This document shows positions 21,501 to 64,000 of a stretch of DNA of 64,000 nucleotides, piece by piece. The notes under the pieces are model-generated. The model did not search any database. It was given only the letters and a program-made list of their open reading frames with translations, and was not told the origin of the DNA. How positions within the stretch are numbered: position 1 is the first letter of the stretch; each line of letters begins with the position of its first letter. The position numbers were made by a program, and so were the translations under genes. Source of the stretch: Ceratodon purpureus (lineage: Eukaryota > Streptophyta > Bryopsida > Pseudoditrichales > Ditrichaceae); contig CM026426.1 of NCBI GenBank assembly GCA_014871385.1, positions 1,275,544 through 1,339,543 of the forward strand, written 5' to 3'.

Positions 21501-24354
21501 GGTAGGCAACTAACTATAGACCCTTTTATATTAGGAATTTTTTGCTCCAAAAAAAAAAGCACGAGGTTGCAAATTATTCCATGCATCTTCAGTTTCCCGT
21601 AAATTTTTCAACAGAGGTCCGTAGTAATTGATGAATCAAATACCCTTCAACAATATCACACCAAAATAGGAACTCTATTTAGTATAAAATATATGTACTT
21701 TGTAAAATTTTCTAGAATCTGACGTAGTTCAGATTCTAGAAAAGTACTACCTACGCGACTGTACACCCATGTTTTTGTGATGTGTGCATTTCAACAACAA
21801 TGCATAGCACTGTTCTAAGCATTTTTATAATGTGGAATGCGTTCACACGTTTCCATTTTAAAGAAACAGAGTACTTCATACCATTTACTTCCAGAAAAGT
21901 ACAATTCTGACATACTTTTTGCATAGGCGTAGTGTGCTTCCAACCTTAATAATTAGTTTTACCATTTAATAGCAAAAAAATCATCCATTTGGTACGAGTG
22001 TCCAATGCAAGACTTGCTTAGGAGTAACAATGATGGCAATAACAATCAAAAATTGATGTTATTTAATTGTAGAAATGACATATTAAGGGCACTTATAAGG
22101 ATTGGAACAAACCAATTTCCAAATCCACCTATCAAAGATGGCAAAACTGGGAAAAAAATATTAAAAAAGCGTGAGCTATTCTTTAACACATTATGAAGTT
22201 GATAATTTCTACCAAGAATTTGATTACCATGTCGTATTAATTCCATACAAATTAGTACTGAGATGCATATACCCATGATTCTAACAATGGCACCAAATAT
22301 GCAACATAGAGTTCCTAAATCATTGTGGTTTATTAAAAATAGCCATCATTGTAATAAAAAATATCATGCTAAAATCCCATCTTTCAGTACTGCCATCCTT
22401 TGTTGAACAAAAGTTTAAGTGATGTTTTGCAATTTAGAAAAGATTCTTCACAAATTGTTTTGCAAAATCAAGTGACTGATTTCTCTTGTAAATTCTTGCA
22501 AGATTGCACTTGAATAGCAAACAACGTTTTTTAATTTTGTTTTACTTGTTGGCATAATACAGCTTGCTCTGTCAATCTACACTTGGGTGCCCAACTATAA
22601 GCAAATCAATAATACAAAATTTTCCAATCATTTTTGAACTTAAACGCAAACTCATATTATGTTATTCATGTTATATCTTCAATATAAACAACTAAGCTTC
22701 TTGAATATTTATCAATGCTGTAAATCAAAAGAAAGAGCTTTGCTCCGCTCATCAAAAGTGGCTTTCAAAGTTCTACTATAGGTTTTTTGACTATATATAA
22801 TAAAACTTACAAAAATCAAAGTTACAATAATTTCTTCATCATAAAATAACATTCATTATGAACTTGAAACACTGAAAAGTACAATAAAATATATAATAAA
22901 TTCACGCATTGTATATTTGTTTTTTGTTTTATATGTTCTTAATATTTACAAGAGCGTTCCTTTGCTTGCCAATGTCCTTAACATCAAAGCGTTCCTTGAA
23001 AACCACATCATGTTCAACATTGTAATTGCTTGGCACTGTGCTTATATTTGATGCAAAATAAGTTGCTTTTGAAATTTGAGCATGCAACTTATTTTGAGTA
23101 ATTCATTGTTATATAATAATGCATATAAGCTATACAAAAAACACACAACTAAAAATAGTTTGTTAAATGTGTAAATTTATCTAGTTGAAGGATATTCTTT
23201 ACTTTTTCTTTGCTAAGTTAAATACTTTTATCAAATCATGGGAGAAGAAACCTTGATTTGTTCTTTTAACGCTTAATGTAACAGCTCTTTGAGCAAAACC
23301 TTGCAAATGGGCTCCACATTTTCATAAGAAATTGAAGACGACAAAGTTTTAAATAAAAACTAAAGTTGTAATTTGAGGCTTTTGGCTTAAGCTCTTTAAG
23401 GTACGTTTAGTTATTTGGGTTGTAAGGACCATGGAACCAAGGTGAAAATTTTGTTTTATTTTGATTTCAGTCTTTACATCTTTCTTCTACTATGTGTCTT
23501 TTTTTGGTGTTTTGAAAGTGTTACCGCTTTGCACCTCTAAAATTTACTTGTTTTTGACATCGTTTTTCTGGCAATGATTGTTCAACATCACCAAACTCTT
23601 TTACCTCGGCATTGGCAATTTTAGAGATCCTATTAAAAATGGAGAAGATTCCCTATTGATTATAAGATACATTTTGAATTTTGAAAAGACTATATGAATG
23701 AAAAGTTGTTTAACATGCAATTGCTATTGCATAACCTACTTTGACCAAATTCAAAATAAACCATTAAGTAAAACCTAGTCACTTTGCCCTATTTTCATTA
23801 GTTTAATTCAAATATTTCTTTTCTATTAGTGTTGGCAAAAGCATTCAAACTCCTTCACATCTATAATTATGAAAATAAACCACGTTTGCCTTGTGGTTGC
23901 CATTCATTTCAATTCAAGTGAAAAGCATATAATTTACTAGAATTTTCAGCCATGTATTCATCAAAATCTTTTTTTACTGTTATTTTTTAACATCTTTCTA
24001 TCTTCTTTCCACTACACTTGGGTTTGGATTTCTTTCACAACTTGTTAAAGAATTTCACAACAACATTTTATGGCACTTTCGCATAAGGAATTCAAATTAC
24101 AATTATAGAGATTATTGAAAAAAACTCATTCTTTTATTTTTCTTTTGTACTTACTTTCTAACTCGATTCGTCTACTTATAGAAGGTTTTCAACTACACAA
24201 TGCTCATATAATAAGTTTTATGAGGATTACATTACATAGTAATTGCTAGAGACTGAGATTAAACTTGGGCTACTATTGTTGTGTTTGTTTTTAGTGCCAT
24301 ACATGATAGTTTGTGTCATATCCTTGTTTCTTAACAACAAAGAATAAAAATCGG

Positions 24355-43600: not shown

Positions 43601-44855
43601 TACATTGTAAGGCTTCTCAGGGCTCAGTATCGGCACTAGGAATGCCAAGACCCTCCTCTCCCTCTTGTCCTTACAGTCCTTCACATAATACCCATACTTC
43701 GCATCCAACTTCTGGGCAAACTTACCTCTGGTACAGTCGTCTTTCTTGGATGCCATGCCCTCACCTCCGGTTGGAAACCCGTAAACTCCTGTCCAGAGCT
43801 CCGCACTCCATCGATCGGGCCGCCCCCGCACAGTAGTCGCGTACCGCGGATCCACCTTCCCGGTAGTTAGTTCCTTCACCATAGCCTCGCTCCGCACCCT
43901 CCAGGACTTCTTCAATAAACCACCGCAGCCCATCCTCTTAAGGTCCTCCTCTAAGTCACGGCCCTCCTCTGCATTGTTGGGGATACCCACGTGGATCTTT
44001 CGGAGACCCACTGTCCCGTCTTGGCTTCGCTTCTTGGGCTGTGCGGCCATGGCGTCCCACTGTCGGTGCGTACTTCTAACCCTCCGGCTCCTCAGTCGCG
44101 GTCGGCGCTCCCAATCCTCCGCTTTCTGCTTGGTGACTGCTCCGCAGTGCCGCGATCCCCCTGTCGGTGCTGTCTACCTTGCTTGGGCGGCGCGGCGGCT
44201 AGGGTTTCCCACCTCAGGCTGCTACCGACTACCACTAACCCGAGCTCCCTTCTAACACTATGCCGCGACCTAGGGTTTCTCCACACGACGTGCTGCCTAC
44301 TGTGGCTGCGTCTCGACTACCGCTACCCCTCTAAGAGATGCCTCAATTCGGCGCTGTCCGCTGTCGGTGCTTCCCGCCTCCAGCGTTATCCGCTACCTGC
44401 CAAAAGTAATTTCTACAGTGCGCTCCGCCTCTCTCGGATCCCACTAGTTTCTATCCCTCACCCTAGGCGGCCGCTACCGACTACTACTCACATCTCTCCT
44501 CTAAACCCTCACCTCAGAAAGATGGAAAGAGAGAACTCCTCTCTCGAAGGAGGGGCTTCTAACCCTAGCCGCCGGTCCGATATCCGGGTCGAAACCCGGG
44601 ATGGGTGAGATCCGGGCTTCTGCATGGGCCGGGTATCACCTTTCCGCTTTCTACCTCTAAGTTTCCACCAAAAGGGCGGAAATCTAACTATCTCTAATTA
44701 CTACTTTTTAACATATTTAACTATTTTTATTTTTCCTTAATTTCTATTTCTATCATTCTAATCTAATGTCTACAATTAATTCTAACTAACTATAACTTCT
44801 ATCCTTTTTAACACTTTTAATCTAAAAACATAGACAAAACAATAATTCATGGAAA
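40647..44855 (-). mobile_element. Probable inserted GC-rich unit carrying a gag-like/accessory ORF
   Basis: GTCGT is found on both sides (40642-40646 and about 44857), consistent with a 5-bp target duplication, and the sequence between differs sharply in GC content from the flanking relics. It carries the minus-strand ORF pair 42161-44050, a palindrome CCGGGTCGAAACCCGG in the leader (44584-44599) and a 2-kb tail without coding signal. I found no LTR pair and no pol domain, so the class (non-autonomous retroelement or other) is open. Confidence 0.35.
42161..44050 (-). CDS. Transposon-type protein interrupted by one in-frame TAG
   Basis: A 382-codon frame from ATG 44050 ends in TAG at 42904-42902; after one codon (GTC) an ATG at 42898 opens a further 245 codons in the same frame. 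The upstream part has a compact N-terminal domain of about 240 residues (GLRKIHVGIPNN, DRWSAELWTGVYGFP, YGYYVKDCKDKRERRVLAFLVP, GPFLYHLYEHG), an acidic linker, and a coiled coil (about 340-375). The downstream part continues helical (MDTVGVPGDVWLKAKMFD) into a disordered acidic region and a basic tail (KEKRKLRKMEAKERKK). The first domain resembles gag-like or accessory proteins of plant retroelements, by pattern only. The continuity suggests one 629-codon gene broken by a nonsense codon, or stop readthrough. Confidence 0.6.
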
Positions 44856-48799: not shown

Positions 48800-49600
48800 T
48801 AATCTACACACCCCACATCACTGTGCTCACGGTGAGTTCATAGCAACACATCATTCAAGGAACAAGGGAAGAATGGAGACAAGAAGAAGATGGAGAACAA
48901 AAATAAAGTTAGGAGAAACCCCAACCCCCCTTCCCCCCCGGATTTTATTGAAGTACCTTTCAGTTTATAGGTCGCCATTACTCCATCCTTAATTGGATTA
49001 AGGCGTGCCTTAGCTTTTTGGAAAGCTAATTTGATTGTGCATCTACCCTCAAAATCTCAAGATCATAAGATCAAAATTCAAAGACTGATTGCTAAAAATC
49101 CGAGACCCTTCCTCCAGCCGCACTCCTTTGACAACCCCAACTTCGGTAGGCGATATCTCACTCCCTATAACTTAGAATTGGACGTGCTTACTACCATTGG
49201 AAAGCTCTACAAGAGATCTACAACTCTTTCAAATCTCAATCTACTTGAACAAGAAACGAGGGATTGATAGGGAAAACAATGGGAGACACTCTATGGAGTA
49301 AGAAGAAAACACAAAAAGCTTGAAAACAAGCTCTCAAGTACAAGATAAGAAGCTGCCGAAGTGGCGGCTCACCCTAACCCTAAACCTAGGCTTAAAGCCC
49401 TTATCAGGGTTTTCTATGCCGTCGGGTCGTGACTTTTCCGTCGCAACGTCCGAATGGATCGTGACGGGGGTCCTCCGACGTCACAATAGGGGTCAGCGTA
49501 GGGTCCTTTAGGTCCTGCGAGTAGCGTGGGTAAAAGAGTTACTCGGCCCCGTTACGTGGCGTCCTACTTGGAATTGCAGTGGCCCCAGACGGTGACGTGG
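48800..49600. other. Spacer, no gene recognised
   Basis: A purine-rich AAGAAGATGG stretch and a poly-C run (about 48920-48940) precede sequence with short ORFs only (49031-49267, 49320-49511). CACCCTAACCCTAAACC near 49370 is a two-unit telomere-like stretch. From about 49,400 GC content rises toward the CGGAC-rich interval. Confidence 0.45.
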
Positions 49601-49619
49601 ATGTGCGGAGGAGTTCCGA

Positions 49620-49895
49620 CGGCGGAGTCGGGCGGACAGAGACGGGCAACCGATTTAGGGTTCAGGGGCGGACGTGTTTAGGCCTGGCGGACGATTGAGG
49701 AGGAACACGACCGTTGATTGCCGGGGAAGTCCGCGAGTGGGCCGGACTGGTAGGCGGACATGGCTCGGACGGGCCTGTAGGCGGGCATAATGCGTATCCG
49801 GGTGGGCGGACTTGATGCCGATCGTATTGCGGACGGAGGCTTTCGGACCGGGCGGACGCGATGTGAACAAACACATACAGGGTGGTCCGCGATGC
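49620..49895. repeat. CGGAC-rich interval 1
   Basis: About ten CGGAC (plus strand) and two GTCCG within 275 bp, mostly as GCGGAC or TCGGAC. The phrases CGGACGATTGAGG, GGACTGGTAGGCGG and GTGGGCGGACTTGATG have close counterparts in interval 2. It lies 3' of the RING gene A. Counts are by eye. Confidence 0.8.
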
Positions 49896-50288
49896 TGTGG
49901 TTGGGAACATATTGTCTTCAATTTTCACACAGCTCAACTGCTTCACGAGCAAATATGAAATTCGAACCATCCGACACTACTGAAGTGACACACTGACCAA
50001 CTACTTCTCATACCGATATTGAATTCCATCAGATTATATATTGTAATCGAGATGTATCCATTAAAACATGGCTGTCTTGGTAGAAGTTTAGTCAGTGAAA
50101 GAGTATAGCTCTGAAAGTTCCTTATAAAAAACAGGACTTCCTTGATAGTAGCTTAGTTATCAAACGAGTATAGGTCCGAAAATTCCTTACAAACAGTCTC
50201 TGATCAAAGTTTTCCTGGTTCAGATGCACAGTTGGGAGTTTAAAAAAGGTAAAGTGTCTAAGCTACTGTAAGAAAATTCACTGCGTAG

Positions 50289-50567
50289 TCACAATGCAAT
50301 CCATTCCGTCGCTGAGATACAGTCGCAGTCTTCCAAGAAATCGGAGGTGGAAAACACTATTTTGATTTCCGGCGGCATGTAGAGGTCGACTTGTCCTTGC
50401 GCGCATAATTCCACCCTCCAATGTCCAAGTTCAAATGCTTGCGCCTCTTTTCTCCCTCTCCAGTATCCCTCAAAAAAAAATTGCTTATCAGATGCAAGAT
50501 ACCGACGCATAAGTCGGAAGTATTTCATATTCGGTTCCATAACGGATTCAGCAATACTGGAAATCAA
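50289..50567 (-). CDS. Second ORF overlapping the end of RING gene A
   Basis: A 92-codon frame overlapping the end of gene A by 20 bp in another frame. Its translation (FFFEGYWRGRKEAQAFELGHWRVEL ... YMPPEIKIVFSTSDFLEDCDCIS) has real-protein composition, and follows the RING finger where the related gene at 56-59 kb has a long conserved tail. It is therefore probably the C-terminal tail of gene A, reached by an unrecognised intron or a frameshift. Its own start codon is an ATG within the overlap. Confidence 0.4.
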   Translation of the reverse strand: MISSIAESVMEPNMKYFRLMRRYLASDKQFFFEGYWRGRKEAQAFELGHWRVELCAQGQVDLYMPPEIKIVFSTSDFLEDCDCISATEWIAL

Positions 50568-51678
50568 TGCACATGCGCGACATTGACGTACCTTTGCACT
50601 TGAAAAAGCCGAAGCTGTTCAACCAGTTCTCTGCAAAATGCTCCCCGCATCTTGCACAGTTCTGACCAAGCGAAGTCCGCACTGCAGCGCACCACGGGTG
50701 GTATGGGCAAGCGCACGACGCAGTCACGAGGTCCATCGCCGGAAACCCTTGGTTACAAAGGGAGCAACCTTGCACTGTAAGGGTAATTGAGTCGATGTTC
50801 TGAGTGGGCGCTGCGATTCGAGGACTGGGGGCACGGAACATTGATGAAGACGACCATATCTGAAGCTGGCGGAGATTTTCTTTCAAGCCCCTCACCTTGT
50901 CCCTTGCATCCTGCTTTGCTGAAGACAGGCGTTTCTCATCCTCGATGGCCACCGCAAGATCCCTCTCCGACGTTTCACTTAAATCCTCCTTCATACGTTG
51001 CACTTCCTCCCCAGCCTCCAAGATTCTCTGTTCTTCGCCGTGGATTTCGTCCTCGAAGAACCTCAGGAATGTTTCATCAGCAGAGCCTTCGACGACGGAC
51101 TTCATCGCCCCCCACTTCTGCAGTTTCGCCTCGGAGGAGTCCATAGTCTCCTCAATGCACCTCAGCTTGATCTGAAGCTTGTACCTGTCCATATCCGTGA
51201 GCGGTGGCTTGGCCGTCTGCCTCAGAAGCGCAGCCCGTTCGTGTGCAACACTATGGGCTGCCACGGCTGTCTCGAAGTCCTTCTCAGCGTCCGCAATCTC
51301 GGCTTCCAGGCCCTTGCAGACGATTTCGACGTAGGTGGCATTCCGGTCAGGGGTGCGATACAGGACTGTGAGTTCGTCTCCGCTCTTGATTTTCTTACCC
51401 CTCCAGCGATCCTCCGCATACTTTGCCCAGTTCATTGGGTAGCGATGGCAAACCTCCGAAACGACCGCTCTCGCGAAGCTCTCCGGGAGGAACAAACCAG
51501 CAGGAAGCTCGGGAATTTGAGAGATTGCTGGGTACAGCTCCAACACTCTCGCCTTGACCTCTCCTGATTTCGCTCCGTCGAAGAGATATCCCTTCCCAGG
51601 AACCCTCTCTCCGAATATGGACCTTAGGCTCCTCATTGCTGACATGGTTGCAGTCGAAGGCGGGGTCCAAACCTGCAT
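50548..51678 (-). CDS. Coiled-coil protein with C-terminal RING-like zinc finger (gene A)
   Basis: About 376 residues from the first in-frame ATG (51678; MSAM at 51645 is an alternative). The N-terminal 130 residues form a mixed domain (IFGERVPGKGYLFDG, PESFARAVVSEVCHRYP). Residues about 130-275 are charged and heptad-like, with 'EEQRILEAGEEVQRMKEDL', and probably coiled. The C-terminus has CSLC, then SCACPYHPWC, then CARC: a RING-like ligand order with Cys where RING-H2 has His in the fourth position. RING fingers usually recruit E2 ubiquitin-conjugating enzymes, so an E3 ligase role is possible but not shown. The finger and following NSFGFF align by eye with gene C (CIVC ... HGFHPYC ... CPIC ... 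LTFGLRDFMP). A CAAAG/GTACGT splice-like site at 50592 lies at the end of the finger region. Confidence 0.7.
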   Translation of the reverse strand: MQVWTPPSTATMSAMRSLRSIFGERVPGKGYLFDGAKSGEVKARVLELYPAISQIPELPAGLFLPESFARAVVSEVCHRYPMNWAKYAEDRWRGKKIKSGDELTVLYRTPDRNATYVEIVCKGLEAEIADAEKDFETAVAAHSVAHERAALLRQTAKPPLTDMDRYKLQIKLRCIEETMDSSEAKLQKWGAMKSVVEGSADETFLRFFEDEIHGEEQRILEAGEEVQRMKEDLSETSERDLAVAIEDEKRLSSAKQDARDKVRGLKENLRQLQIWSSSSMFRAPSPRIAAPTQNIDSITLTVQGCSLCNQGFPAMDLVTASCACPYHPWCAAVRTSLGQNCARCGEHFAENWLNSFGFFKCKGTSMSRMCIDFQYC

Positions 51679-52384
51679 TTGGCAACCCAACCTTCACGTG
51701 AAAGTAATTCTCCTTCCTAACTTCTCCCATTCTGACCCCTCTCACTCGCAACAGGTATATCCCTCCTCTTTGATCGGACCCTTGCAACCTCAGACCAGCG
51801 AACTACAAGTTGGAACCAGAATGCAATGGCGACTCCACCTAAAACTCTCAGCGATGGCGTGGATTGAATGGAACTGCCCTGGCCATGGCTACCCCTACAG
51901 GCAGCCGCCATATTTAACGCCAAGGTGGTCATCTCATTATGGTGATTTGAGGGGTTGAGTTCGGATTGGCGACTGTGACTTGACAACATACCTTTCAGGA
52001 CTTCCTGTCTTCATACTCCTCCTTCAACACTCAGTGTATCCAAGTAGGCTCCATCATTGCAACATGAATATGGTGTTTCAAATGTCCTGTAGGCTGTGGG
52101 TAATAGACGGTTTAATAGATGGATCAACACGAAATTCATTGCATTCAAAAAAATCTATGCACCTTGTAATTCTACTGAAGTGTCACACCGATCAACTCTC
52201 GTGTTTGTAAGTTCTATTGGGAATTTTCGTTCATGAGTTGGTCACAGTTTGAATTTCACGTTGTTGAAGAGGATTTGTGACATTGTCTCTGCCTAAGCAC
52301 GGGACACGAGCCGTATTTCTCGGCCAGTCGTCCGGTCTTTCCGACATTCCTCGTCGCCAGGTTTGAAGATCGAAGTGGTTTAAT

Positions 52385-52670
52385 GTAGCGGACGATTGAG
52401 GCCGGACAGGCGGATGCGGATCGGGGTTTAGAGTCGAAAGGCAATGATATGCGGACGCGGCTGGGGCGGACTGGTAAGCGGGCATGATTCGGACGCCAAT
52501 AAGACGGATCGGAGAGCGGGCACAACGAGTACGCGGAGTGGGCGGACTAGATGTCGGACAGTGGTCACTGCGGGAGGGTGTCGGATCGCACGGATTCGAG
52601 GTGAACGGGCACCATCCGCGGGTGCAGTGGGCAAGGGGGTGGTCCGCGTCGCCGGACCATTTTCAGAGGG
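52385..52670. repeat. CGGAC-rich interval 2
   Basis: About eight CGGAC and two GTCCG in 285 bp, about 0.7 kb upstream of gene A. Several phrases match interval 1: CGGACGATTGAGG, GGACTGGTAAGCGGGCATGA and GTGGGCGGACTAGATGTCGG. The two intervals therefore look homologous, not merely similar in composition. Confidence 0.8.
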
Positions 52671-52959
52671 TCCGGCGTGGAATAGACGTTGGGTGTTTAG
52701 GGCTCTGGTCCCAATATTGTGGAATTACAATCACTCTATCATGGCTTCGGGGTCAGGAATGTGACAAACAAACTCTATTTACAAATTGATCTGTTCAGAG
52801 TCGGTACATGACCTCCTATGCGCCTAACCTGGGCAAATGCAAACTCGGACCCTGGTGTTCAGAATGATATAGTTATATTCAAATTGTCAGACCACTAAGA
52901 AGCGGTACCTGTGCGTTGGACAAAACGTTTCTAAGGAGTTTTGCATACTCACATGTGAT

Positions 52960-54770
52960 TTATGAATGGGTGTCCCGGAAACACATATTCGGTGTTTGCA
53001 GATTGTAAGGTGGTAACTTCAACGTCTTCACGACGTGTGTGACGGTTTGTCTAGCAGCCGGGTTGATCTGGGTCATTTCGTCTAAACCCTGCTCAAAGCG
53101 CATCTTAACCCCGTTAGGATCGCAGTTCTGCTTAAATAGAACCAATGTCGAGTCGGAGTTGTAAATCTGCCTTGCGAGTACTCCAACGCTATAGGACTCT
53201 GATTTGTACGTGTGAGGGTGCTGCTTTGCCATGCGACGTGGGGATTGGGATGAGCATCTAGAGCCATGCATATGGAACAACTCCGGAGCGGCACAACTGT
53301 ACATTTCCATGTGCTTCTTTATCGCGTCTTCGCTCTGTACTCCGTAGTACGAAGGGGCCGATTCGGGCATGAAAGAAGCCATTCCCCAGTCACATATACC
53401 TATGAAAATAGCTCCGTCGCGGTTTGTTGGAAAGTGGAGCATGACATTGTTAGGGTGTAGGTCGCAGTGTAGCACTTCCTCGCCGTGTACCACATCCACA
53501 ATGCACATGAGAGCCAAGGCCAAGTGAGCTCGATTTTTTCGGTAAACGACCAGCTTCTTCCGGGCCTCGAAGTCCAGACCTGCGTCTTTGAGGAGTTCCA
53601 TTTCATGGGTTTCCCTAAATTTCAAATCGAACGCACGCATGTTCTTCAACGAGCCTCCGTTCCACCATAGCGAGTACGACTCTAACGTCTTCCGGTTTAG
53701 GTATTGCAGCTTAATCACACCAGGGTGATCAACTGGACATGACATTGCCTCGATAGAGCGTTGATCGCGACTTGTCTTGAAGTCAGTCACCTTCATCGTC
53801 TTCCCTGCAAAATGAAGCCACTCCGAGATGAAACATGCCTCTGCAATTCGCACCCTTCGCACGATTCCAAACGAACCCTGAAAACTATTTTCGTCTACGG
53901 GGATGGCGTAAGAACCCTTTGGTAGCCACTTCAGACCGTTTCTGTCCCGAGAAGCGATGTCGTCGGCCAGAGCTCTCCCGACAAACTTCGGCAGTGTAGT
54001 CCTTCCCTTCCCCTTCGCGAGGATAGCACCTCTTTTCCAATTCTCCAGCTTCTGTAGGAGCTCGGAGTTTCCCCCACTACGTCCCGAACCAGGTCCACAC
54101 AACATTTAAATGGCACTGTCGAATTGAACAATGCCTCCTGCACCTGTTCCTTGATCCACTGTCCCCAATTGCTCTTCCCTCTATCCTCCTGGAACTCATC
54201 CCCCGCCATGCCCTCCTGCAGTAGTAACCTCAGAGCATTCGAAGCTTTCTCGAGTCCCGCCGGACCATCATTCAAGAATGTACTCTCCAAGTATGGCATG
54301 TCGTGGCTTGCAAACCAGTCCAGGATTATCTTTCTACAGCAAAGCCTAGCCTCCGTGGAATGCTGGTCACACGCGGCTACCTTCTTCCGATGCTTGTGCT
54401 TCCTAACCTCAGAACCGGACGCGGTCGACACTGACTCCGTTCCTTGCGACCCCCCTGCCCGCTTACTTCCCCTACGCTCTTCAGTAGACGGCGGACACTC
54501 GTCGGACGGTGCCGATGTCCACAATACCCTAGGTAGTGGTTTAGGTGGCGGGACGATTTCCATGGCGGGTGCTTGTACTCCGCTAGAACTTCCCGAGTTC
54601 GCTGGACCAGACCTAGTGCCTTGGCTGCCGATGTTTTCCGCGGCGTGGCTCCCTATCGCACCGTGTCGCCCCCCAGATCCATGGGTTGCACGAGAGCCGT
54701 GACTCCGGGAACCATGGCCACCCCGCGTTCCCCGCGCTCTCTGCAAGTGGCCTCCTCCGAGGTTTTCCAT
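52960..54770 (-). CDS. Protein kinase with N-terminal disordered region; apparent frameshift (gene B)
   Basis: The 381-codon frame ending at 52960 is a protein kinase: Gly-rich loop SFQGSFGIV (ORF residues 74-82), ATP lysine in AGKTMKV (Lys102), catalytic loop HCDLHPNNV (Asp215, Asn220), metal-binding DWG in place of DFG (Asp239) and the CAAPE motif (273-275). All catalytic residues are present, so activity is plausible. It has no membrane segment. Upstream, in another frame, 54770-54070 encodes a Gly/Arg/Ser-rich region, a basic stretch (RKHKHRKK) and a helical domain (RLCCRKIILDWFASHDMPYLES ... WGQWIKEQVQEALF). The two frames meet at a run of five G (complement of 54071-54075); one extra base there would make a single protein. 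Start uncertain: ATG 54770 or an upstream exon near 54888. Confidence 0.72.
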
Positions 54771-55239
54771 CGGGGTGAATTCTTGATTAAACCTGGTTCT
54801 CTCTCCGCCACGCCCCCCGCCCACCCCGAGTGCTCCGGTGGGGCTCCCGTCAGATCGCCATTCCTGATGTATTCATCCACTCTCGTTTGCCATGGTACCC
54901 TGGAAAAGAAGAAAACAGAACAATCAGCAATTGGTTTTTCGGTAGGCGAGTCAGTTCAGAACCCTGATATAAATTAGCAAGGGTTTGTCTCTGAAATCGG
55001 TCCCGTGCTCTACTGACCCTCCGGACCCGCGCACTGCCGCTGTCCCGACGGACGCAACAGAGTCTCGGATCCCAACAAGAGGCCTAGAGAGGATGGGAAA
55101 GTGAGCGGAAAATAAAGGGACACCTTTATATAGGAGACGAGGAAGATCATTGATCTGGGAAGATAACTGATTGCTTGGCGATCACCCTTGGAAGGGATCG
55201 GTCGGGTGGCAGACGTAGGATCTAGGCCTGTGAGCGAAT

Positions 55240-55495
55240 TAGAGTTAGCGGGTTGGTCGGATTGCACAGTCGGACTTGGCGGACTGTGAATGCGGACGAG
55301 GCGGGTCGTCGGACGGGGGGGTTGCTATGTCCGCATGGGATCGCGATCTTATGATGCGAGCGGATGGGTCGATCGGTGATTGCACCACGCGTACTCGGAT
55401 GCATGGGCGGACTCGGACCCGGATGCACGGGCGGATTCGGACTCGGACGCATGGGCGGACTCAGACTCGGTCGCATGCGCGGACTGAAGGGATGA
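55240..55495. repeat. CGGAC-rich interval 3
   Basis: About ten CGGAC and one GTCCG in 255 bp, about 0.4 kb upstream of gene B. The 3' half is a degenerate 20-25-bp tandem array of GGATGCATGGGCGGACTC-type units (about 55395-55480). Confidence 0.85.
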
Positions 55496-55663
55496 TACTC
55501 TTTATACTCTTTATATCCAGACTTACGCGTTGGTGACTCTAGGTGAGTCTTCGGGAAAGGAAAAAGCCAAATGAAGTTATGTTTATGCAATGGTTACTAT
55601 ACTTATGAAAGAAAATAAAACATTGTTCATGGTTATCACTCTATACAGTTCTAGGAGTTTATC

Positions 55664-56197
55664 TCACTCCGAATCGTCTAATTGCAATGTATCACCTAAT
55701 CCGGACGCTGCACTATTGTGGCCAGGTTGCGTTGGGCCCTCGGACGGCGGAATCGGCGGTGTCGGGACTCTGGAGGGAGGTGCCGACTGGCTTGGGTTCA
55801 AACGGGTTCGTGACGCGTTCCTCGTGGAAGTCCCCGGCGGTGTCGCGCTCCTTGGTGTGGCCCTTGAAGTTCCTGAAGTCGAAGCACCACTCGATAACAA
55901 GCGTTGACGACATGATGGCTCCTTCGGCTTGGGCCTCGGTCCTTTCTTATTCAGCCACTTCTTGGTAGCGGGGAGAATTTTGCATAACAATTCTTCTAAA
56001 GCGAGAATCTCTAGCCGCATCGTGTGGTAACCCTGTTCGTAAACCATCTCCTGCGTACTGTTAGCATCCCTATTCCAGTTCGGAAATCCTGCCAATACGT
56101 CGGAAGGTGTCGCAGGCAATCCTTGTGAATTCACTGGATTTGGATTCTCCCCTGGAACTAGCTGGCCCTTTCTACGGTCCCAGTAGTGTTTGCACAT
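55664..56197 (-). CDS. C-terminal continuation of gene C in another frame
   Basis: A 177-codon frame beginning at ATG 56197, overlapping the last 40 bases of gene C. It starts MCKHYWDRRKGQLVPGE, continues with a helical segment (YEQGYHTMRLEILALEELLCKI) and ends in a Ser/Pro/Thr-rich tail with LDDSE. It directly follows the GIRQYFTR of gene C and reads like its natural extension (FTR then MCKHYW), requiring a shift of one base or a splice. It could also be an independent small gene. Confidence 0.45.
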   Translation of the reverse strand: MCKHYWDRRKGQLVPGENPNPVNSQGLPATPSDVLAGFPNWNRDANSTQEMVYEQGYHTMRLEILALEELLCKILPATKKWLNKKGPRPKPKEPSCRQRLLSSGASTSGTSRATPRSATPPGTSTRNASRTRLNPSQSAPPSRVPTPPIPPSEGPTQPGHNSAASGLGDTLQLDDSE

Positions 56198-58983
56198 CTG
56201 GTAAAGTATTGCCTGATTCCATCATCGACAGGCTTCCTTGGGTACAACAAATCGGCCGCTTGCATAATGGTCTTCGGTCTCCTTAGCAAGTCCGTAGGCT
56301 GAAATTGGTACCACATCTCGAGCTGCGACGTGTGTAGTTGCCAGACCCACTCCATTGGTTTATCCTTGAAATTCCCGAGCGGAAAGTTCTCTGGGAACTC
56401 TCTTGGATCGTACGCCCAGCCCCTGGGCATGAAATCCCTCAATCCGAATGTCAAATACAGGCGAGGATGGAGAGGGGCTGAGCAGATTGGACACGCACGT
56501 CTTCTTATCATCATCGGGATTAAACAATATGGGTGAAATCCATGTTTGCACGTCTCGAGTTGGTAGCACCCCTCCTGGCCAAAAGGATTAAAGCACACGA
56601 TGCAATTGGATCCGTCCTTTGTCATTTCGTGCGGGACGGGCCAAGTCAGCGCCTCCAGCTGCTCTTTGGTCTTGCCCATCCCCCACATCTGAACCCGCTT
56701 CCAGTGATGATCAATCTCAGCAACATTCTCCCACTGAATGCTGCCCGTGCCGGACCGCATCCCTGGACTGTCCTCCCATTCCGGAGGGTACATCGTCTGT
56801 AAAGGCGGCCAGGAGGTGAGGAGCAAGTGTCGCAATCGTCCATTCTCCGTCCACTCTTTCTGAATTGCCTCGAATTCCTTCTCGTACTGAAGTCGCCCCG
56901 CTATTGCAAGTATAGCGATCATGTACATATCCTCCGTTTTTTGGAGCGCACCCACGAGTAATGCCTTCTGCTCCTGAGTTAATGACTCGGACCAGCCCAG
57001 GATTGGATCATCGTTGGCACCACCTTCATTCACAGGGCCAGTGGCCTTCCCAAGCCGTGTTACCTCCTCTAGTAGTCGCAGGTTCTCTGTCTCCAATTCC
57101 ACCACCTTCGCATTGTTTGCTTCTTTCTCCGCCTCTGCCTCCGCACGTATCAAGTTGTCGCTCGTCGTAGCGACTTCCCGGAGCTCGTTTAGTTCTTCTT
57201 GTGTTTTCTTTGCCAAAGCTATTGCGTCCGAAGCCTTATTCTTATGATCTTCCAGTTTGGACGCCAATGAGAGGATGATCTCTCCTTGCTTCGATGTGTT
57301 CTTCTTCTCCTCCTCCAGTTGGCGAGACAGTCTCCGACATTCGTCTTCCATTGCCTTGGCACGTATCTCGGATTCCTCTAGTCGGACAACCCGCTCCGTG
57401 GATGTGGCTTCCGCCGCTATTGCTCGCTTTTCCGCATCTTCGAATCGGACGCTCATCTCCCTCATTTCCGTTTCCAACGCAATTATGCGTTCCTCAGCGT
57501 CCGTGAGTTGGCCATTTAACTCCGTGGTCAGGTCCTCGGCCGTTTTCGCTGCGTACATGGAGGCTTTCATATCCTTTTCCCATGCATTAGCCCGTGCCTC
57601 TACTCTCTCAGCGCATCTCAACGCCTCGTCCCTTTCTCGCATCAACTCTGTGTCCGATGTTCCTGCCATCTGGTCCCCGCTGTCGGACACGCGAAGAACC
57701 TCTATCTTCAGTTCCAAACCACCTATTGTTGCTTTTAACTCCCGAACGTCCGCGTCATGTTTGGCAAAAACTTCCTCTAGCAGACGCCGCATTACCGGGT
57801 CTGCTCCCAATACAACGTTTGCTGCACCTCTCGGCTGAGGAGGATCGTGATGGGCAGTGCTAGTTGTCGCACCTCGTCCGAATAACCCGTGTTCCGAGCC
57901 GGGCATCCGCCAATCCCGTGAGGTCGTCGGAGCGATTCTCCCATCGAATCTGTGGTCCGACCCACCTAAACCCTCGTCCGACGCACCCAGACCCTCGTCC
58001 GACGCACCCAAACCCTCGTCCGACCTACCTAAACCCGGGTTCGCGTTCTCGATCCCATCGTGCGCCATGTCAAGGTCTATGTCAGCTCCAGAAAAGGAGG
58101 CTACTGTCGCGTTGACGACTTCTTCCAATCCGACCATAGCCACATCTGGCCCGGAACTCTCCTCACCTGCCTCGGATGGTCCCCATGCCGATCCCGTCCG
58201 ATCGTTCCCCCCGTCCCTCGCATGGGATGCAGTCGCCGCGCCCGACCCTTCTCCCGCACTCCCGCCAATGATGGGGTCCGACCCACTTCCCTGCCAATCG
58301 GATCCGAGCATACCAGCCATCTGATCCTCGTACGTGGCATTCTGTATTGTGCGTTGCCGTGGTCTCCCGGCCCTCGACGGTTCCCTGTCTGTCGGTATCG
58401 GACCCCCTGGATCTTCAACGAGGGAAGGATTACGCTTGAACCATTCGGGCACATCTATATAAGGTATGTGCACCGGCTTCTTCGCTGTCAATTTCTCTCC
58501 TAGACCTCCGAAAGTGGAGCCTGGAGTCTTTAAGGTAGACCAGTCGACCTTCTTCTTCAACACATGCTCGGCATACATCAGGGAAAGAATAGCCTTCGGG
58601 ATCTCGTTCTTGGGCCACTTCAATTCATTGGAAATTGCCCGAAAAATGCAGAGGAATCTCCACTTCACGTCCACGTCTGTCAAGGATGCATATTTCGCGT
58701 TCTTCGACTTACAGTGTTGTGCGTGCGAACTATCTGGCCAAAGCCAATCGAAATGAGGAAAGTCGACAAAATGCATAGCCGTCGCAGCGTCCCAAGGCTC
58801 TGGCACTTCCTCCCAGCCATTAGCAGCCAGTATCGCTCTATTGTGGAAAACGTCCAGCTGCAAATCCAGTTCTTTGCGGGCTCTCTTCCCGGAACCACTG
58901 GCGGACTGCGATCCGCCGGCGGACTCATCTCCGCCCGGTCTGCTCGGCCTCCTCCTAGAGGGAGTGCCCGATCCGGTGGACAT
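56158..58983 (-). CDS. Large coiled-coil RING-H2 protein (gene C)
   Basis: About 941 residues from ATG 58983 (the frame extends 10 codons further on GTG). Order: basic Ser/Arg/Gly-rich start; a globular N-terminal domain about 40-190 (FHNRAILAANGWEEVPEPW, DVKWRFLCIFRAISNEL, WSTLKTPGSTFGG); an acidic disordered region with a DEGLGAS tandem repeat near residue 320-345; a long coiled coil about 390-665 (ERVEARANAWEKDM, EESEIRAKAMEDECRRLSRQ); a conserved block (WEDSPGMRSGTGSIQW); and a RING-H2 finger about 794-834 (CIVC, CKHGFHPYC, CPIC), followed by a long tail (LTFGLRDFMPRGW ... EMWYQFQPTDLLRRP). An E3-type scaffold is possible from the RING; no substrate is apparent. Gene A shares the coil-RING-tail order. 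Confidence 0.8.
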   Translation of the reverse strand: MSTGSGTPSRRRPSRPGGDESAGGSQSASGSGKRARKELDLQLDVFHNRAILAANGWEEVPEPWDAATAMHFVDFPHFDWLWPDSSHAQHCKSKNAKYASLTDVDVKWRFLCIFRAISNELKWPKNEIPKAILSLMYAEHVLKKKVDWSTLKTPGSTFGGLGEKLTAKKPVHIPYIDVPEWFKRNPSLVEDPGGPIPTDREPSRAGRPRQRTIQNATYEDQMAGMLGSDWQGSGSDPIIGGSAGEGSGAATASHARDGGNDRTGSAWGPSEAGEESSGPDVAMVGLEEVVNATVASFSGADIDLDMAHDGIENANPGLGRSDEGLGASDEGLGASDEGLGGSDHRFDGRIAPTTSRDWRMPGSEHGLFGRGATTSTAHHDPPQPRGAANVVLGADPVMRRLLEEVFAKHDADVRELKATIGGLELKIEVLRVSDSGDQMAGTSDTELMRERDEALRCAERVEARANAWEKDMKASMYAAKTAEDLTTELNGQLTDAEERIIALETEMREMSVRFEDAEKRAIAAEATSTERVVRLEESEIRAKAMEDECRRLSRQLEEEKKNTSKQGEIILSLASKLEDHKNKASDAIALAKKTQEELNELREVATTSDNLIRAEAEAEKEANNAKVVELETENLRLLEEVTRLGKATGPVNEGGANDDPILGWSESLTQEQKALLVGALQKTEDMYMIAILAIAGRLQYEKEFEAIQKEWTENGRLRHLLLTSWPPLQTMYPPEWEDSPGMRSGTGSIQWENVAEIDHHWKRVQMWGMGKTKEQLEALTWPVPHEMTKDGSNCIVCFNPFGQEGCYQLETCKHGFHPYCLIPMMIRRRACPICSAPLHPRLYLTFGLRDFMPRGWAYDPREFPENFPLGNFKDKPMEWVWQLHTSQLEMWYQFQPTDLLRRPKTIMQAADLLYPRKPVDDGIRQYFTRCANTTGTVERAS
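57955..58030 (-). repeat. In-frame tandem repeat inside gene C
   Basis: Three near-identical 24-bp units carrying GTCCGACG(C)ACCCA on the plus strand encode repeated SDEGLGA in gene C. Each unit contains the same GTCCG pentamer that fills the intergenic intervals, so the motif is enriched within this coding region as well. Confidence 0.85.
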
Positions 58984-59399
58984 CCTCGTGCTGCGAACTT
59001 TGGACCTACTCACAGTATCTTGGTTAGATCCTGATACGATTACTCTTAAACCCTAAACGGACACTTCGCATATGCTGGGTTCAGGGGAAAAAATTAACAT
59101 TAAGTATATAATGTGACAGAGCACACGAATAGGGTCAATTTAAGTACTTACAGAATATTCAGGTCGTACAAGGACCCCACGCTCACCCCGCACCCCGCGC
59201 GCCCGCACACTCAGAGAGAGGCAAGCGGTCTGGGCGCAAAAGTTGAGAAGTGTGGAGAATGAATGTGCGTCCGAACTTGCATTTATACGAGTCCGCCTCT
59301 CCGTTCCGCACCCGCCCGACCCACTGCCCATCCTGCTCTTGCCCCTTCGCATTCCTCGCTCCCTTCCACATCCCCCGCTCCCTGTCAAGTGCACAACGT

Positions 59400-59600
59400 T
59401 CCCTTTCAGGTCGAGGGCGGTTCGGACCAGGAATCCGACGTCCAGTCCGACTACTGATCCGCATTCCGATTCGGAATTATCAGTCCGACTTGCAGTCCGC
59501 AGTCCGCGCTACAATCGGGATTGTAGTCCGCTGCATCGCGGACACGCGCGAACGTTCCAGAGTGACCTCGTCCGACCTCGTCCGTCGTATCGCTCTTCCA
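59400..59600. repeat. CGGAC/GTCCG-rich interval 4
   Basis: About seven GTCCG and two CGGAC in 200 bp (AGTCCGACT, AGTCCGCAGTCCGCG and others), 0.4-0.6 kb upstream of gene C. Orientation is mostly opposite to intervals 1-3 although the adjacent genes lie on the same strand. Confidence 0.8.
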
Positions 59601-59815
59601 AGCTTTGGTGCTCCCCAATTATCACGCCATCCGGGAACGGGTTCCGCTGCGTCCATCCGGCTTGGTTTTTTATCGATTAAAGTTTTCCTTATTATTTTTT
59701 CATTATCTTTCTTGGATGTTTTTTGTGCCAAAGAGCAAACTTCATCTCAAAGACCCGATTGAGGTCCTCGTCGGACGACTTTTCACATAAAAGATAGGAT
59801 ACTGCAGCATTGTAC

Positions 59816-60091
59816 ATGTACAAAACTAACACTAGTTCGGAGGTAGTCCTGAAGTTTATAGTTACGGATCACGATGAGGATGAGTTCGAATTGCAAGGAC
59901 GTGTCCGACCGGATGTTGGATTAATCGTTACACAAGTTCTCTGTGATGATCAGCTCTACAGTGAGTTCTTACTGAACAGTTGCACATTCAGAATCGTGTT
60001 CGAGAGAAAAAGGAAGGAACCATACAGGTGGAGGTTGCATGCAAGATTTATTTTATTTTTTGACGCAAAGGAATTCCATTGGAAAAGATAG
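59816..60091 (+). CDS. Possible small ORF, unknown
   Basis: A 91-codon plus-strand frame from ATG 59816 whose translation (VVLKFIVTDHDEDEFELQGRVRPD ... CTFRIVFERKRKEPYRW) has balanced composition unlike random AT translation. No domain recognised. It would be the only plus-strand gene in the 49.6-64 kb island, which argues for caution. Confidence 0.25.
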   Translation: MYKTNTSSEVVLKFIVTDHDEDEFELQGRVRPDVGLIVTQVLCDDQLYSEFLLNSCTFRIVFERKRKEPYRWRLHARFILFFDAKEFHWKR

Positions 60092-60756
60092 ATTACAAGC
60101 CCGCATGCAAGAGTCTATCACGCATTGCCCTGGCTAGAACACCAGTATCGTACCTGAAGAGGATACACAACATACGCAAAAACTAATTAGGGGTAAGGGA
60201 GGCACATGACAGCCGTCAGAGCCAAATTTCCATAACGCAACGCGGACTCCATATCACGACAATGAATGATCCGAGATTTAATGCACGCCGCCAACTCCAT
60301 TGGACGAGAATCTTACGAAATTGGGACTTTATTGGACGTTGCCAGAGCACTGTTCTATACATAGTAAAAAGGCACATAAACTGATAGTAACAACATGTCT
60401 AGCAAAGGTTCGTGCAGGATTAGAAAAGCCGAGTAATCCAACCCAGGATCACTTTCCGTAAATCAAAAATAGGAACTGCAAAAAAGGGATCTGTGAGACG
60501 TAAGTTACAGTGAAGAAAAGTTCTCAAAATGGAGCTTAAAACTGCAAAGCTCATTATGCACCGCAGCTCCAGCAGACCCTCAAAAGAGGCGGGTTCAAAG
60601 GAAGTTGCATTGCATCGCTGGCGGATTCATACTTCAACAAAATTGTTCGTTCGAATGCAGGTCCACCCCTTCCATTGCGCAAATACCCGCTCCATTCTAA
60701 TAAGCCCGTAAATTGTTCCACTTCATATGGCTCCATAGTGTCCACTTACAAATGGA

Positions 60757-61371
60757 TTAATAGTTACACGTACATTCCGGCTCCGACAGAAGATCCACGA
60801 AATCGGTCTCCGTTCCCTGGTCCGCGAGTGACGCGCCGGGGCGTCGTGGATCCGCAAAAAGCAGGGGGTTGAGGAGGCATACCTTCGTAATCGCGACTAA
60901 GCCGCCGTTCCCGACTTCTGCGATGCCGTGCGACTCGGCCACCTCCGGCGAGAGTCCGAGAGATATCCCCGGTCGGATTGGAGCGGGGATGTCCGTCTCG
61001 CGATGCGCGCTTGTGGGTGATCCGGTCTGCGAGTTCGTGGGAGTTCCGCTCTGCGCGTGAGCCGAGCCGTGTGCAGTTTGATCTCCCGAGTTCGCAGCTC
61101 CGGCTGCGAGTAAATTCCGTCGCACCCAAGTGTAGTTCAACACATTGTTGACGTTGGTGAACTGCTCCTGCATAATGGGCGTCCACTGGAAATCACGAGA
61201 AGTATTCAACAAAGACCTCACAATATCCTGGTGATCTGGTAAATACCGGAAATCTCTAATCTCGTGCATCACGCGGGTTACAAGCAGCCACTGCAAAACA
61301 TCCGTGGCGGTCTCAGGGTGCGGGGAGGACTCTATCGGACTAGGCATTCTAAACGAGGAGCTCCCGGCCAT
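60757..61371 (-). CDS. Small hypothetical protein (gene D)
   Basis: 204 residues from ATG 61371 (MAGSSSFRMPSP). The N-terminal 100 residues look folded and helical (ATDVLQWLLVTRVMHEIRDFRYLPDHQDIVRSLL ... WTPIMQEQFTNVNNVLNYTW); the middle is Ser/Thr/Gly-rich and disordered; the end (LSPEVAESHGIAEVGNGGLVAITKV ... LLSEPECTCNY) is acidic. I do not recognise it. It lies on the same strand as genes A-C, with CGGAC/GTCCG-rich interval 5 about 0.3 kb upstream, so it probably belongs to the same array. Confidence 0.5.
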   Translation of the reverse strand: MAGSSSFRMPSPIESSPHPETATDVLQWLLVTRVMHEIRDFRYLPDHQDIVRSLLNTSRDFQWTPIMQEQFTNVNNVLNYTWVRRNLLAAGAANSGDQTAHGSAHAQSGTPTNSQTGSPTSAHRETDIPAPIRPGISLGLSPEVAESHGIAEVGNGGLVAITKVCLLNPLLFADPRRPGASLADQGTETDFVDLLSEPECTCNY

Positions 61372-61689
61372 GCTACGAGACGATGCGGAAATCAAGAGAG
61401 TCAAGTGGGAGTCTCAAATGACAGTCTCAAAAATACGCACCCTGTTCATTCTAAAACGAGAGTCTCAAGAATAACCAAAATTACTATACGCATATCGTGG
61501 AAGAGCATAGGTAATCTACCGTGTAGACAGTAGACTGCCGTTGTAGAAGAATGAGTGAATAATGACTGAACAATGCATTTGACATGATATCCGAGAGCAG
61601 GGAAAGAGTGACAATGATTAGATCAAGCATGTTAATCATAAGTACTGATGTTTTGGTGGGAGTGGAGACATGTTAGTGCATGACTTAAA

Positions 61690-61895
61690 GAAGAACGTCC
61701 ACTCAAATCCGACATTGCCATCCGTCGTCCGACCTTCGTATCCGCGCTCTCCGCATCCCGTCCGCATGAACCCGGTGCATTTGGATCCGACGAGAGCACG
61801 CTCCCGACCTGTCCGACCCACTGACCGCGTAATTCCCAGTGTTGAACGCAGGTTCCGATGGCTCAATCGCTCCGATTCTCCGATCACAGTGACTG
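61690..61895. repeat. GTCCG/ATCCG-rich interval 5
   Basis: About three GTCCG, several ATCCG(A/C) and one CGGAC in 200 bp, upstream of gene D. Weaker than the others but the same vocabulary (CCGTCCGCATG, TGTCCGACC). Confidence 0.65.
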
Positions 61896-62114
61896 TCACG
61901 GACCACGCAGCCAAGATTAACAAAAATACGAAATTCATGGAGAAAGAAAACGCTATGAATGAAGAAGGATGAATAAGCGTTTAATAGAAAAAAATAAGGG
62001 AAAGTTATAGAGAATTATGAAATAATGTTTAAATAAGGATGATATAGAAACAATCGTGAATGATAAAGGAATGAGGTGGGAGTACAATAGAATACTTAGA
62101 GCTAAATATATATT

Positions 62115-62317
62115 AAGCCCTAAAGTTCTGAGGGTATTTTTCATCAAAACTGCCTGAAAACAGCTCCTCTTCGAAGCAAGGTGGATTCTGAAAACTTGGG
62201 GGTTTTTTTTTTAGCATCTAACCAAAAGATCTTGTAGCTACTTCAATAAATTGCATACATACGTACATGCCCAAATTAAAAAAGGCCCAAATGTGGCAGA
62301 TTGTCCTTTAGGGTTAA
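62115..62317. mobile_element. Short deletion copy of the 13.9-kb TTAACCCCTAAA family
   Basis: Starts TTAAGCCCTAAAGTTCTGAGGG and ends ATTGTCCTTTAGGGTTAA; both ends match the 13921-14793 element over tens of bases (CAAAACTGCCTGAAAACAGC, GAAGCAAGGTG, TACATGCCCAAATT), while about 670 bp of its middle is missing. This proves the two are related mobile copies. Confidence 0.8.
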
Positions 62318-62607
62318 AAACGATAAATACAGAGTGATTACTAACGGAGTATTGGAACGATTTAAAATAAAATTAATTGGTGGCAATGATCAATTAGATG
62401 GCATAAGAGCAAAAGTAGACTAAAAAATAATATAGAAGTCCACTACAATTCCGATGAGGACAATTAAATTTCCTTAAAAATATAACGACCGTATAAATTA
62501 TACTACGATTTAACTAGGTATGACAAAGTTGGTTGGCGTGTAGGCAAAAGGTTTAACATATGTAGGCAAAAAGTTTTGGATATGAAAGGCGTTTCAATTA
62601 AATCTTA

Positions 62608-62697
62608 ACCGCAACTTACCGCAACGTACCGCAACTTACCGCAACGTACCGCAACTTACCGCAACTTACCGCAACGTACCGCAACTTACCGCATTGT
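62608..62697. repeat. 10-bp tandem repeat (CGCAACTTAC/CGCAACGTAC)
   Basis: About nine units alternate between two variants differing by one base. Poly-C (about 62727-62735) follows. No coding. Confidence 0.9.
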
Positions 62698-62769
62698 GAG
62701 GTAGCACTACCCACCGCTGCCCCACCCCCCCCCTTCTGTAACAATGAGGATAATGGGATTTGGGTTTAG

Positions 62770-62880
62770 AGAGCGTATGCACATGTTTCTTATATGCACA
62801 TGTTTCTTATATGCACATGTTTGTTATATGCACATGTTTCTTATATGCACATGTTTGTTATGCACATGTTTGTTATATCA
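62770..62880. repeat. 18-19-bp tandem repeat (TATATGCACATGTTTCTTA type)
   Basis: About six copies with unit ATGCACATGTTTCTTAT or ...TTTGTTAT. Each contains the palindrome-like GCACATG. No function apparent. Confidence 0.88.
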
Positions 62881-63314
62881 ACGTAATTACTATACTCATG
62901 TGTTGGTTGCATAAACAAACATTTAAAAAAAATATAAAAATATATCTCCAAAGATTAGAGATTTTACAGGAATCTTGGAATGTAAATGCTTATATGTAAA
63001 TGATTGTCACACTTTAATAACTTGTTATTTGGGCTTTTATAAAACGGATGCCAAAAAATTCCAATGTTTTCCTTATTCCATTAGTTTTTTATAATACATA
63101 TTCTCACTCTGTTTGTAAATCACGTACAATTACATCCACATGTAGGAATACTATACCAAATGGGACTTCCCACGATGCATGCTCTACGAAATAATGATTT
63201 TTTATTATTCGGAACAGGATAAAATAGACAAAATTGAGGGACCGCGGAGGGTGCACTCTAATACGCACGGAAGGGAAGTGAACTGTACGCAAACGGGGAC
63301 GAAGATTACAATGC

Positions 63315-63705
63315 AACCCGTCCGACCTGCAGCGGACATCCGGCAACGGGATCGACGAGTAGCCTCCGAGATCATCCAATCAGTATAGGCGCCGGACAGT
63401 GAGTCGGACAGTGCCATATCCGGGGTAGCGAAGAGTGCATGTCTGACACAGAAGTGAGGATGGCGCGAAAGGGGAGTGCGAGGAGGGGGAGTGGGAGGGG
63501 CAACACAGAACACTAAGGGATCCACGGCGGACGAGGTCGGAGAGCCACCAAAAGGGGATATTAATCGTGGGCGGACGGAGGTCGCACATCTGTCGCGGAG
63601 CACCGATTCATGCGCGGACGGGTGACGATATTGTCGGACACGGCTCGGATAAGTACGGAATGGAGGTCTCCTCATATCGTAGTATGAAGACTAGGCGAGC
63701 GTTCA
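63315..63705. repeat. CGGAC-rich interval 6
   Basis: About seven CGGAC and one GTCCG in 390 bp (GTGGGCGGACGGAGG, GTCGGACACGGCTCGG), lying just 3' of the partial gene at the right edge. Long frames on both strands here are products of the high GC content. Confidence 0.7.
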
Positions 63706-63757
63706 CTCTCGGATCCGAACAGTTGGGTCGTTGGCTTCGTCGCAACGTCGGTCCTCC

Positions 63758-64000
63758 TCATTCATCTGTGCTCATGTCGTCATCAGACCGCGGACTTCTA
63801 GTGCTTAGCCGCAACTCATCGTCTCTGGTGATAACTAGCTTCTTCGTTGGACGGGATCCTTGAGGGTCGCGTATTCCATTTTCATCGAGTTCTGGTCTAC
63901 CTTCGGAGTTGTCAGGTTCGTACGGGGCGAAACGCGACGCAGTCCCCTGGAACCTTTTCTTTCGCTTTACACCTCTTGTTGTTCGTTGGATAACACTCCC
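63758..64000 (-). CDS. C-terminal fragment of a gene entering from the right edge
   Basis: A minus-strand frame is open for 80 codons from the window end to TGA at 63758-63760. It reads as a hydrophilic tail: basic (TTRGVKRKKRF), then acidic and charged (EPDNSEGRPELDENG), then KLVITRDDELRLSTRSPRSDDDMSTDE. It has the composition of a disordered C-terminus like those of genes A-D, and is probably the last exon of the next member of the array. Confidence 0.5.
   Translation of the reverse strand, partial: GSVIQRTTRGVKRKKRFQGTASRFAPYEPDNSEGRPELDENGIRDPQGSRPTKKLVITRDDELRLSTRSPRSDDDMSTDE

Follow-up and report, generated by a model that had tools for sequence, protein, structure and literature searches.

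In a 64,000-nucleotide stretch of Ceratodon purpureus (contig CM026426.1, positions 1,275,544 to 1,339,543 of the forward strand; hereafter the window), the pentamer CGGAC, read on either strand as CGGAC/GTCCG, is packed into six short blocks between and beside five genes, A to E, in the 49.4-64 kb part (hereafter the island). In five of the six blocks the word is far denser than chance. The interpretation preferred here, tentatively and with a probability of roughly 0.4, is that each block is a promoter-proximal homotypic cluster of KCGGAY-type sites, and that duplication accounts for part of their spread. One short site, approximately [G/T]CGGA[C/T], would be clustered and bound by a putative DNA-binding protein, and the site clusters would sit some 130-350 bp upstream of TATA-like boxes. 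Local duplication would have enlarged the clusters, and one or more entire blocks would have been copied elsewhere in the island. The blocks would drive genes A-D, and blocks 1 and 6 may have served genes since lost or moved. Feature positions are given in Table 1.

Clustering of the CGGAC word

The window contained 136 copies of the word (76 CGGAC and 60 GTCCG), split into 35 in the first 49.4 kb and 101 in the 14.6 kb of the island. Fifty-seven of the 101 island copies fell within the six blocks, which have a combined length of 1,986 bp (~2.0 kb). This corresponds to ~29 copies per kb, approximately four times the density found in gene C (~7 per kb).

Each block was compared with 2,000 dinucleotide shuffles, using block limits somewhat different from those of the final counts. 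Blocks 1 to 6 gave observed counts of 13, 11, 13, 11, 3 and 9 against shuffle means of 2.8, 1.7, 2.2, 1.8, 1.0 and 2.3, respectively, and in five of the six the observed count was reached in 0 of 2,000 shuffles; these per-block P values are optimistic because the limits were drawn after the counts had been seen, a choice of which the region-wide comparison is independent. The enrichment of block 5 (61.68-61.90 kb; P = 0.07, one edge-straddling copy left out) is unclear. First-, second- and third-order Markov models of the region, each run 200 times, gave means of 33, 45 and 67 copies and maxima of 56, 64 and 90, compared with the 101 observed; an order-3 model already knows most of the pentamer. 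Clustering was measured by counting non-overlapping 300-bp windows that held 5 or more copies. By this measure CGGAC was the most clustered of the 512 strand-merged pentamers in 49.4-64 kb (10 windows), followed by TCCGA (9) and AAAAA (6).

The preliminary description of this DNA had reported pentamer-packed intervals between consecutive minus-strand genes, with no comparable density outside 49.6-64 kb. The packing was confirmed for all blocks except the weak one at 61.7 kb. Genes A and E have the blocks at 49.6 and 63.3 kb on their downstream sides, so that not all blocks directly precede a gene visible in the window. The concentration of copies in the island also stands, although one coding stretch outside it, at 43048-43361, reaches 5 copies per 300 bp. 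Nor is the enrichment purely intergenic, as a coding run in gene C (57681-58254) carries up to 6 copies per 300 bp.

Orientation, internal repeats and copy relations of the blocks

Copies are strongly co-oriented within blocks, with 47 of the 57 in the main orientation of their block against 35.8 expected if orientation were random (P = 1e-5). Along the window the block orientations run +, +, +, -, -, +. The models of genes A-E share the minus strand, so the direction of a block does not track that of the genes. Read in the main orientation, blocks 1-6 had a G over C skew of 0.20-0.34, which exceeds what the word itself can give because it contains two G and two C.

Head-to-tail units of fixed length were seen only at 55393-55485 in block 3, where a 24-bp unit is repeated 3.9 times with 85% matches; a second, small repeat of 10 bp (2.1 copies) lies at 59564-59584 within block 4. 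The pooled autocorrelation of the blocks, with the 24-bp array included, peaked at lags 6 (z 3.8), 38 (z 2.9) and 24 (z 2.8). A 12-bp period common to all blocks was considered and rejected, since it rested on the 24-bp array alone. Once this array was removed, 18 of 156 CGGA spacings fell at multiples of 12, which is not above two other remainders, and no 12-bp phasing was seen elsewhere.

Blocks 1 and 2 are, by alignment, copies of one another (49.7-49.9 against 52.4-52.65 kb; 66% identity over 188 columns, E = 1e-11). Further pairwise alignments in the expected orientation were compared with shuffles and gave z 6.1 for blocks 2 and 3 and z 4.6 for blocks 4 and 5; blocks 1 and 5 gave z 6.8 and 8.4 against two kinds of shuffle. 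The wrong-orientation control reached z 3.5 for blocks 1 and 2. When the window was searched with a profile built from blocks 1 and 2, the next best hits were block 3 (E = 0.054), block 5 (E = 1.5) and block 4 (E = 2.5), all in the expected orientation; the best E in the reversed window was 7.1. These profile matches are suggestive, not significant, of blocks 3, 4 and 5 being further relatives of blocks 1 and 2. The earlier suggestion that the intervals are remnants of duplicated promoters fits blocks 1 and 2, and perhaps those at 55.3 and 61.7 kb.

Two short matches lie at the edges of blocks. One is inverted, between 49502-49532 (left of block 1) and 59160-59190 (next to block 4; z 5.6), and the other direct, between 49420-49452 (left of block 1) and 63720-63750 (next to block 6; z 5.0).

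CpG content, variants and motif columns

The ratio of observed to expected CpG dinucleotides was 1.21-1.44 in six of six blocks, compared with 0.56-0.98 in nine surrounding intergenic stretches. Over 1-13, 13-42 and 44-49.4 kb it was 0.86, 0.57 and 0.70, respectively.

One-letter variants of the word were counted in the main orientation, in which CGGAC itself occurs 47 times against 6.7 in dinucleotide shuffles. Variants at positions 1, 2, 3 and 4 numbered 4, 5, 6 and 14, against 16.1, 6.5, 6.9 and 13.0 in shuffles, so that none of these positions, position 4 as a whole included, shows an excess. The deamination products TGGAC and CAGAC together numbered 4 (5.9 in shuffles). Position 5 variants alone were in excess, at 37 against 16.9, with 20 copies of CGGAT against 6.4. 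Removal of the 24-bp array left 41 copies of CGGAC against 6.1, and position 1-4 variants of 4, 4, 5 and 12 against 14.5, 5.9, 6.5 and 11.7. Neutral arrays that had diverged to the extent of blocks 1 and 2 would be expected to be rich in one-letter variants. On the opposite strand 21 position 2 variants were found, chiefly CCGAC, the reverse reading of the GTCGG in the extended word GTCGGA (19 copies).

In the alignment of blocks 1 and 2, which is the one clearly alignable pair on which this comparison rests, all 17 columns of block 2's motifs matched, compared with 111 of 150 other columns (P = 0.008); for block 1's motifs the figures were 32 of 37 and 96 of 130 (P = 0.08). The CpG level, the few position 1-4 variants and the better-kept motif columns favour retained sites over mere decay.

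Placement relative to TATA-like boxes

Upstream of gene B's TATA-like box, at a distance of 139-348 bp, lies the dense part of block 3. For gene C's box and the dense part of block 4, again upstream, the distance is 136-293 bp, and one more copy sits 4 bp away from that box. Predicted TATA-like boxes at the right distance were found for these two of genes A-D.

Interpretation of the blocks

Of the three origins offered in the preliminary description (a shared regulatory code, transposase binding sites and duplicated promoters), the regulatory code is the best supported, by CpG content, variants and placement before two genes; it is unproven. The blocks resemble homotypic clusters of transcription-factor sites in holding many copies of one short word within 200-400 bp and in lying, before two genes, upstream of a TATA-like box. 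They differ from such clusters in their strong co-orientation, in the enrichment of gene C coding DNA and in the lack of a match to a known factor.

Several observations, along with the late choice of block limits, weigh against a regulatory role. Genes A and D have no TATA-like box at a matching distance. The island contains 12 TATA-like matches, some of the others being near genes B and C, and placement is moderate evidence because 13% of 200-bp stretches in the island contain such a match by themselves. No gene visible in the window is preceded by block 1 or block 6. Tandem growth would account for the coherent orientation equally as well as binding. High CpG is not unique to the blocks, the coding DNA of gene D having a ratio of 1.23, and the position 4 variant CGGGC is mildly above the level expected from base composition alone (10 against 5.5). 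Whole motifs of block 1 were kept in block 2 in 3 of 7 cases, compared with 32 of 152 other pentamers. The coding part of gene C holds 20 copies in 2,853 bases, against ~10 in synonymous codon shuffles (maximum 19 in 500 shuffles), and 16 against 8.6 (P = 0.0055) once its 21-bp repeats are removed. The enrichment is therefore not strictly intergenic; promoter sites do not predict the excess in gene C. Finally, genes B and C look broken, so that constraint on their promoters is doubtful; selection may have ended.

A possible, though doubtful, alternative is that the blocks are a decayed minisatellite, that is, a GC-rich tandem repeat of ~12 or 24 bp that expanded in the gaps of the island, was copied with them and has no function. 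The 24-bp array in block 3 is of real minisatellite origin, and the autocorrelation peaks with this array included, the co-orientation of copies, the fact that block 2 is a copy related to block 1 and the weak similarity of blocks 3 and 5 to this pair are all as such a repeat would leave them. GC-rich minisatellites that flank genes likewise show tandem arrays and co-oriented copies. What such repeats do not lead one to expect is the loss of 12-bp phasing outside the one array, the lack of an excess of position 1-4 variants with or without that array, and the blocks' undiminished CpG. Less probable still, and in our judgement unlikely, is a regional mutational or compositional habit of the GC-rich island that favours TCCGA and CGGAC in coding and non-coding DNA alike. 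The two words rank 1 and 2 of 512 pentamers above codon shuffles in gene C, and 1 and 3 in the pooled coding DNA of genes A-D; the coding stretch at 43.0-43.4 kb is also dense, although its gene is not clearly above its own codon shuffles (5 against 2.6). Individual coding parts give a mixed picture, with 4 copies against 1.5 in gene D, 4 against 2.2 in the N-terminal part of gene B and 3 against 2.2 in gene A, whereas the kinase part of gene B has none against 2.1 expected. The fourfold higher density of the blocks over gene C, and an island count above the order-3 Markov maximum, also exceed what such a bias would give.

Subterminal transposase-binding repeats of DNA transposons carrying the genes are a very unlikely source of the blocks. 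Subterminal regions of CACTA-type elements consist of arrays of short same-direction words that are opposed at the two ends. The blocks recall this in their short words, their 200-400 bp arrays and the opposite directions of blocks 3 and 4, which flank gene C. Three imperfect inverted matches (20-24 nucleotides, 75-83%) also stand in mirrored order around gene A, and when the flanks of A and those of C were aligned in inverted orientation with gaps, the best alignments, themselves weak, gave P = 0.037 and 0.033 against shuffles. However, the blocks on the two sides of genes A and B point in the same direction, clear terminal inverted repeats were not seen, and none of genes A-D matched a transposase model in the Pfam and NCBIfam searches. 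The intervals beside gene C share no exact 11-mer inverted match, and such matches elsewhere among the intervals either are scattered or belong to the motif. The transposase suggestion of the preliminary description receives little support, as the flanks of genes A and C match one another in inverted orientation only briefly and weakly.

Returning to homotypic site clusters, a more far-reaching version would have [G/T]CGGA[C/T] be an undescribed cis-regulatory word, arranged in dense co-oriented arrays 130-350 bp upstream of transcription starts. These would jointly switch on unrelated lineage-specific RING and kinase genes. Duplication would carry the arrays about, bringing newly placed genes into the same programme. 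This version is judged improbable. Literature searches on CGGAC as a promoter motif or minisatellite returned nothing recognised as relevant by title and abstract among the matches listed, and those on CGGAC as a plant binding site and on subterminal repeats returned no match; two matches came up for GTCCG in plant promoters. The kind of arrangement is ordinary, though the idea is testable. Were the word a real control site, the island would gain a simple handle on co-regulation, and a single regulator could be linked to the RING and kinase genes in it; were it a minisatellite or a word bias, the case would be an ordinary one.

Genes of the island

Table 1. Positions of genes, CGGAC blocks and TATA-like boxes in the island (window coordinates; ORF, open reading frame; aa, amino acids)
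Feature	Position	Strand	Remarks
CGGAC block 1	49600..49900	+	12 copies (10 CGGAC, 2 GTCCG); downstream of gene A
Gene A, 380-aa ORF, RING-like C terminus	50548..51690	-	Coiled coil by eye; no Pfam match at E 0.1
CGGAC block 2	52320..52690	+	11 copies (8 CGGAC, 3 GTCCG); between genes B and A
Gene B, protein kinase, serine/glycine-rich N-terminal part	52960..54893	-	Pkinase E 4.6e-10
TATA-like box upstream of gene B	55125..55132	-	Sequence match
CGGAC block 3	55240..55490	+	11 copies (10 CGGAC, 1 GTCCG); upstream of gene B
Gene C, large protein, RING-H2-like match	55664..59013	-	Coiled coil by eye; two overlapping ORFs
CGGAC block 4	59260..59660	-	11 copies (9 GTCCG, 2 CGGAC on + strand); upstream of gene C
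TATA-like box upstream of gene C	59282..59287	-	Sequence match
Gene D, 204-aa ORF from first ATG	60757..61371	-	No Pfam (E 0.1) or NCBIfam (E 0.01) match
CGGAC block 5, weak	61680..61910	-	4 copies (3 GTCCG, 1 CGGAC on + strand); upstream of gene D
CGGAC block 6	63290..63720	+	8 copies (7 CGGAC, 1 GTCCG); downstream of gene E
Gene E, C-terminal ORF end, cut by window edge	63758..64000	-	ORF

The closest relative of kinase B was an environmental protein (P0004, 644 aa) that is 96% identical over the kinase part. Relative to this protein, gene B has an early in-frame stop and a frame change near 54.1 kb, and on this comparison the gene looks broken; the stop and frame change may come from sequencing error. 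Relatives of kinase B numbered 68 at E 1e-5 among 2,742 candidates, and clusters of the kinase family (ORF 52963-54105, minus strand) stand for up to 73 member sequences (P0017). One relative, P0057, is listed under a lichen (Gyalolechia) metagenome assembly and is perhaps a contaminant or photobiont sequence. Against the Protein Data Bank, kinase B gave weak generic kinase matches (best E 0.006).

The RING-H2 match of gene C scored 25.1 bits, below the Pfam cut-off of 27.3. Its two ORFs, 56158-59013 and 55664-56197, overlap, which suggests a frame break or an unrecognised intron, and the gene looks broken. The in-frame 21-bp repeats at 57955-58036 carry the CGGAC word. Scoring of the 7,993 candidates with the most shared words gave three relatives of gene C at E 0.01, none of them named. 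Almost every relative found for the RING and kinase genes is an environmental or genome sequence without a name.

Genes A and C share a weak RING match (hhalign profile E 3e-4, probability 39.5%; BLASTP E 0.68). Gene-wide paralogy of A and C was rejected, this weak match being all that was found, as was paralogy of D and C, D having no match to C. With gene B being a kinase, the flanked genes are therefore not shown to be paralogues, a question raised in the preliminary description; gene E is too short to compare. The idea that the gene family at 42.9 kb is homologous to that of gene C was likewise rejected (E 0.09).

Searches for the DNA of relatives covered viral contigs (with kinase B, the RING C alignment and the kinase alignment) and genome contigs (with the kinase alignment); none was found in either set, from which records near the window's own were possibly left out. 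Rfam at gathering scores and a tRNA scan were both empty.

Other features of the window

A dispersed repeat at 62092-62327, between blocks 5 and 6, also occurs at 13899-14056 and 14721-14802 in pieces that are 79% and 84% identical. Beside it, tandem arrays of 10-bp and 17-bp units lie within 62608-62878. The gap between genes C and D contains an imperfect palindrome of ~77 bp at ~60034-60110 (z 11.7 against shuffles), which is perhaps a small foldback element.

Outside the island, two adjacent ORFs at 42164-44050 (minus strand) continue within one 530-aa environmental protein (P0072), with 100% identity over 74% of a 382-aa query. They had 55 relatives at E 1e-5 and matched no Pfam family at E 0.01. 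In AT-rich DNA at 22049-22345 (minus strand) lies a 99-residue cox1-like fragment (COX1 E 1.4e-5, 24.6 bits against a cut-off of 34.8). It is probably an old mitochondrial insertion, and it resembles sequences of plants or green algae. Together with the TATA-like boxes and the transposase pair described below, this fragment makes a streptophyte nuclear genome likely. At 11649-12190 a 270-bp unit is perfectly duplicated in tandem. A PIF/Harbinger-type DDE transposase (DDE_Tnp_4, E 4e-33) at 6315-7670 (plus strand) lies near a Myb/SANT-like protein (E 3.4e-7) at 9062-10309 (minus strand); the two are the usual partner pair of a PIF/Harbinger-type element.

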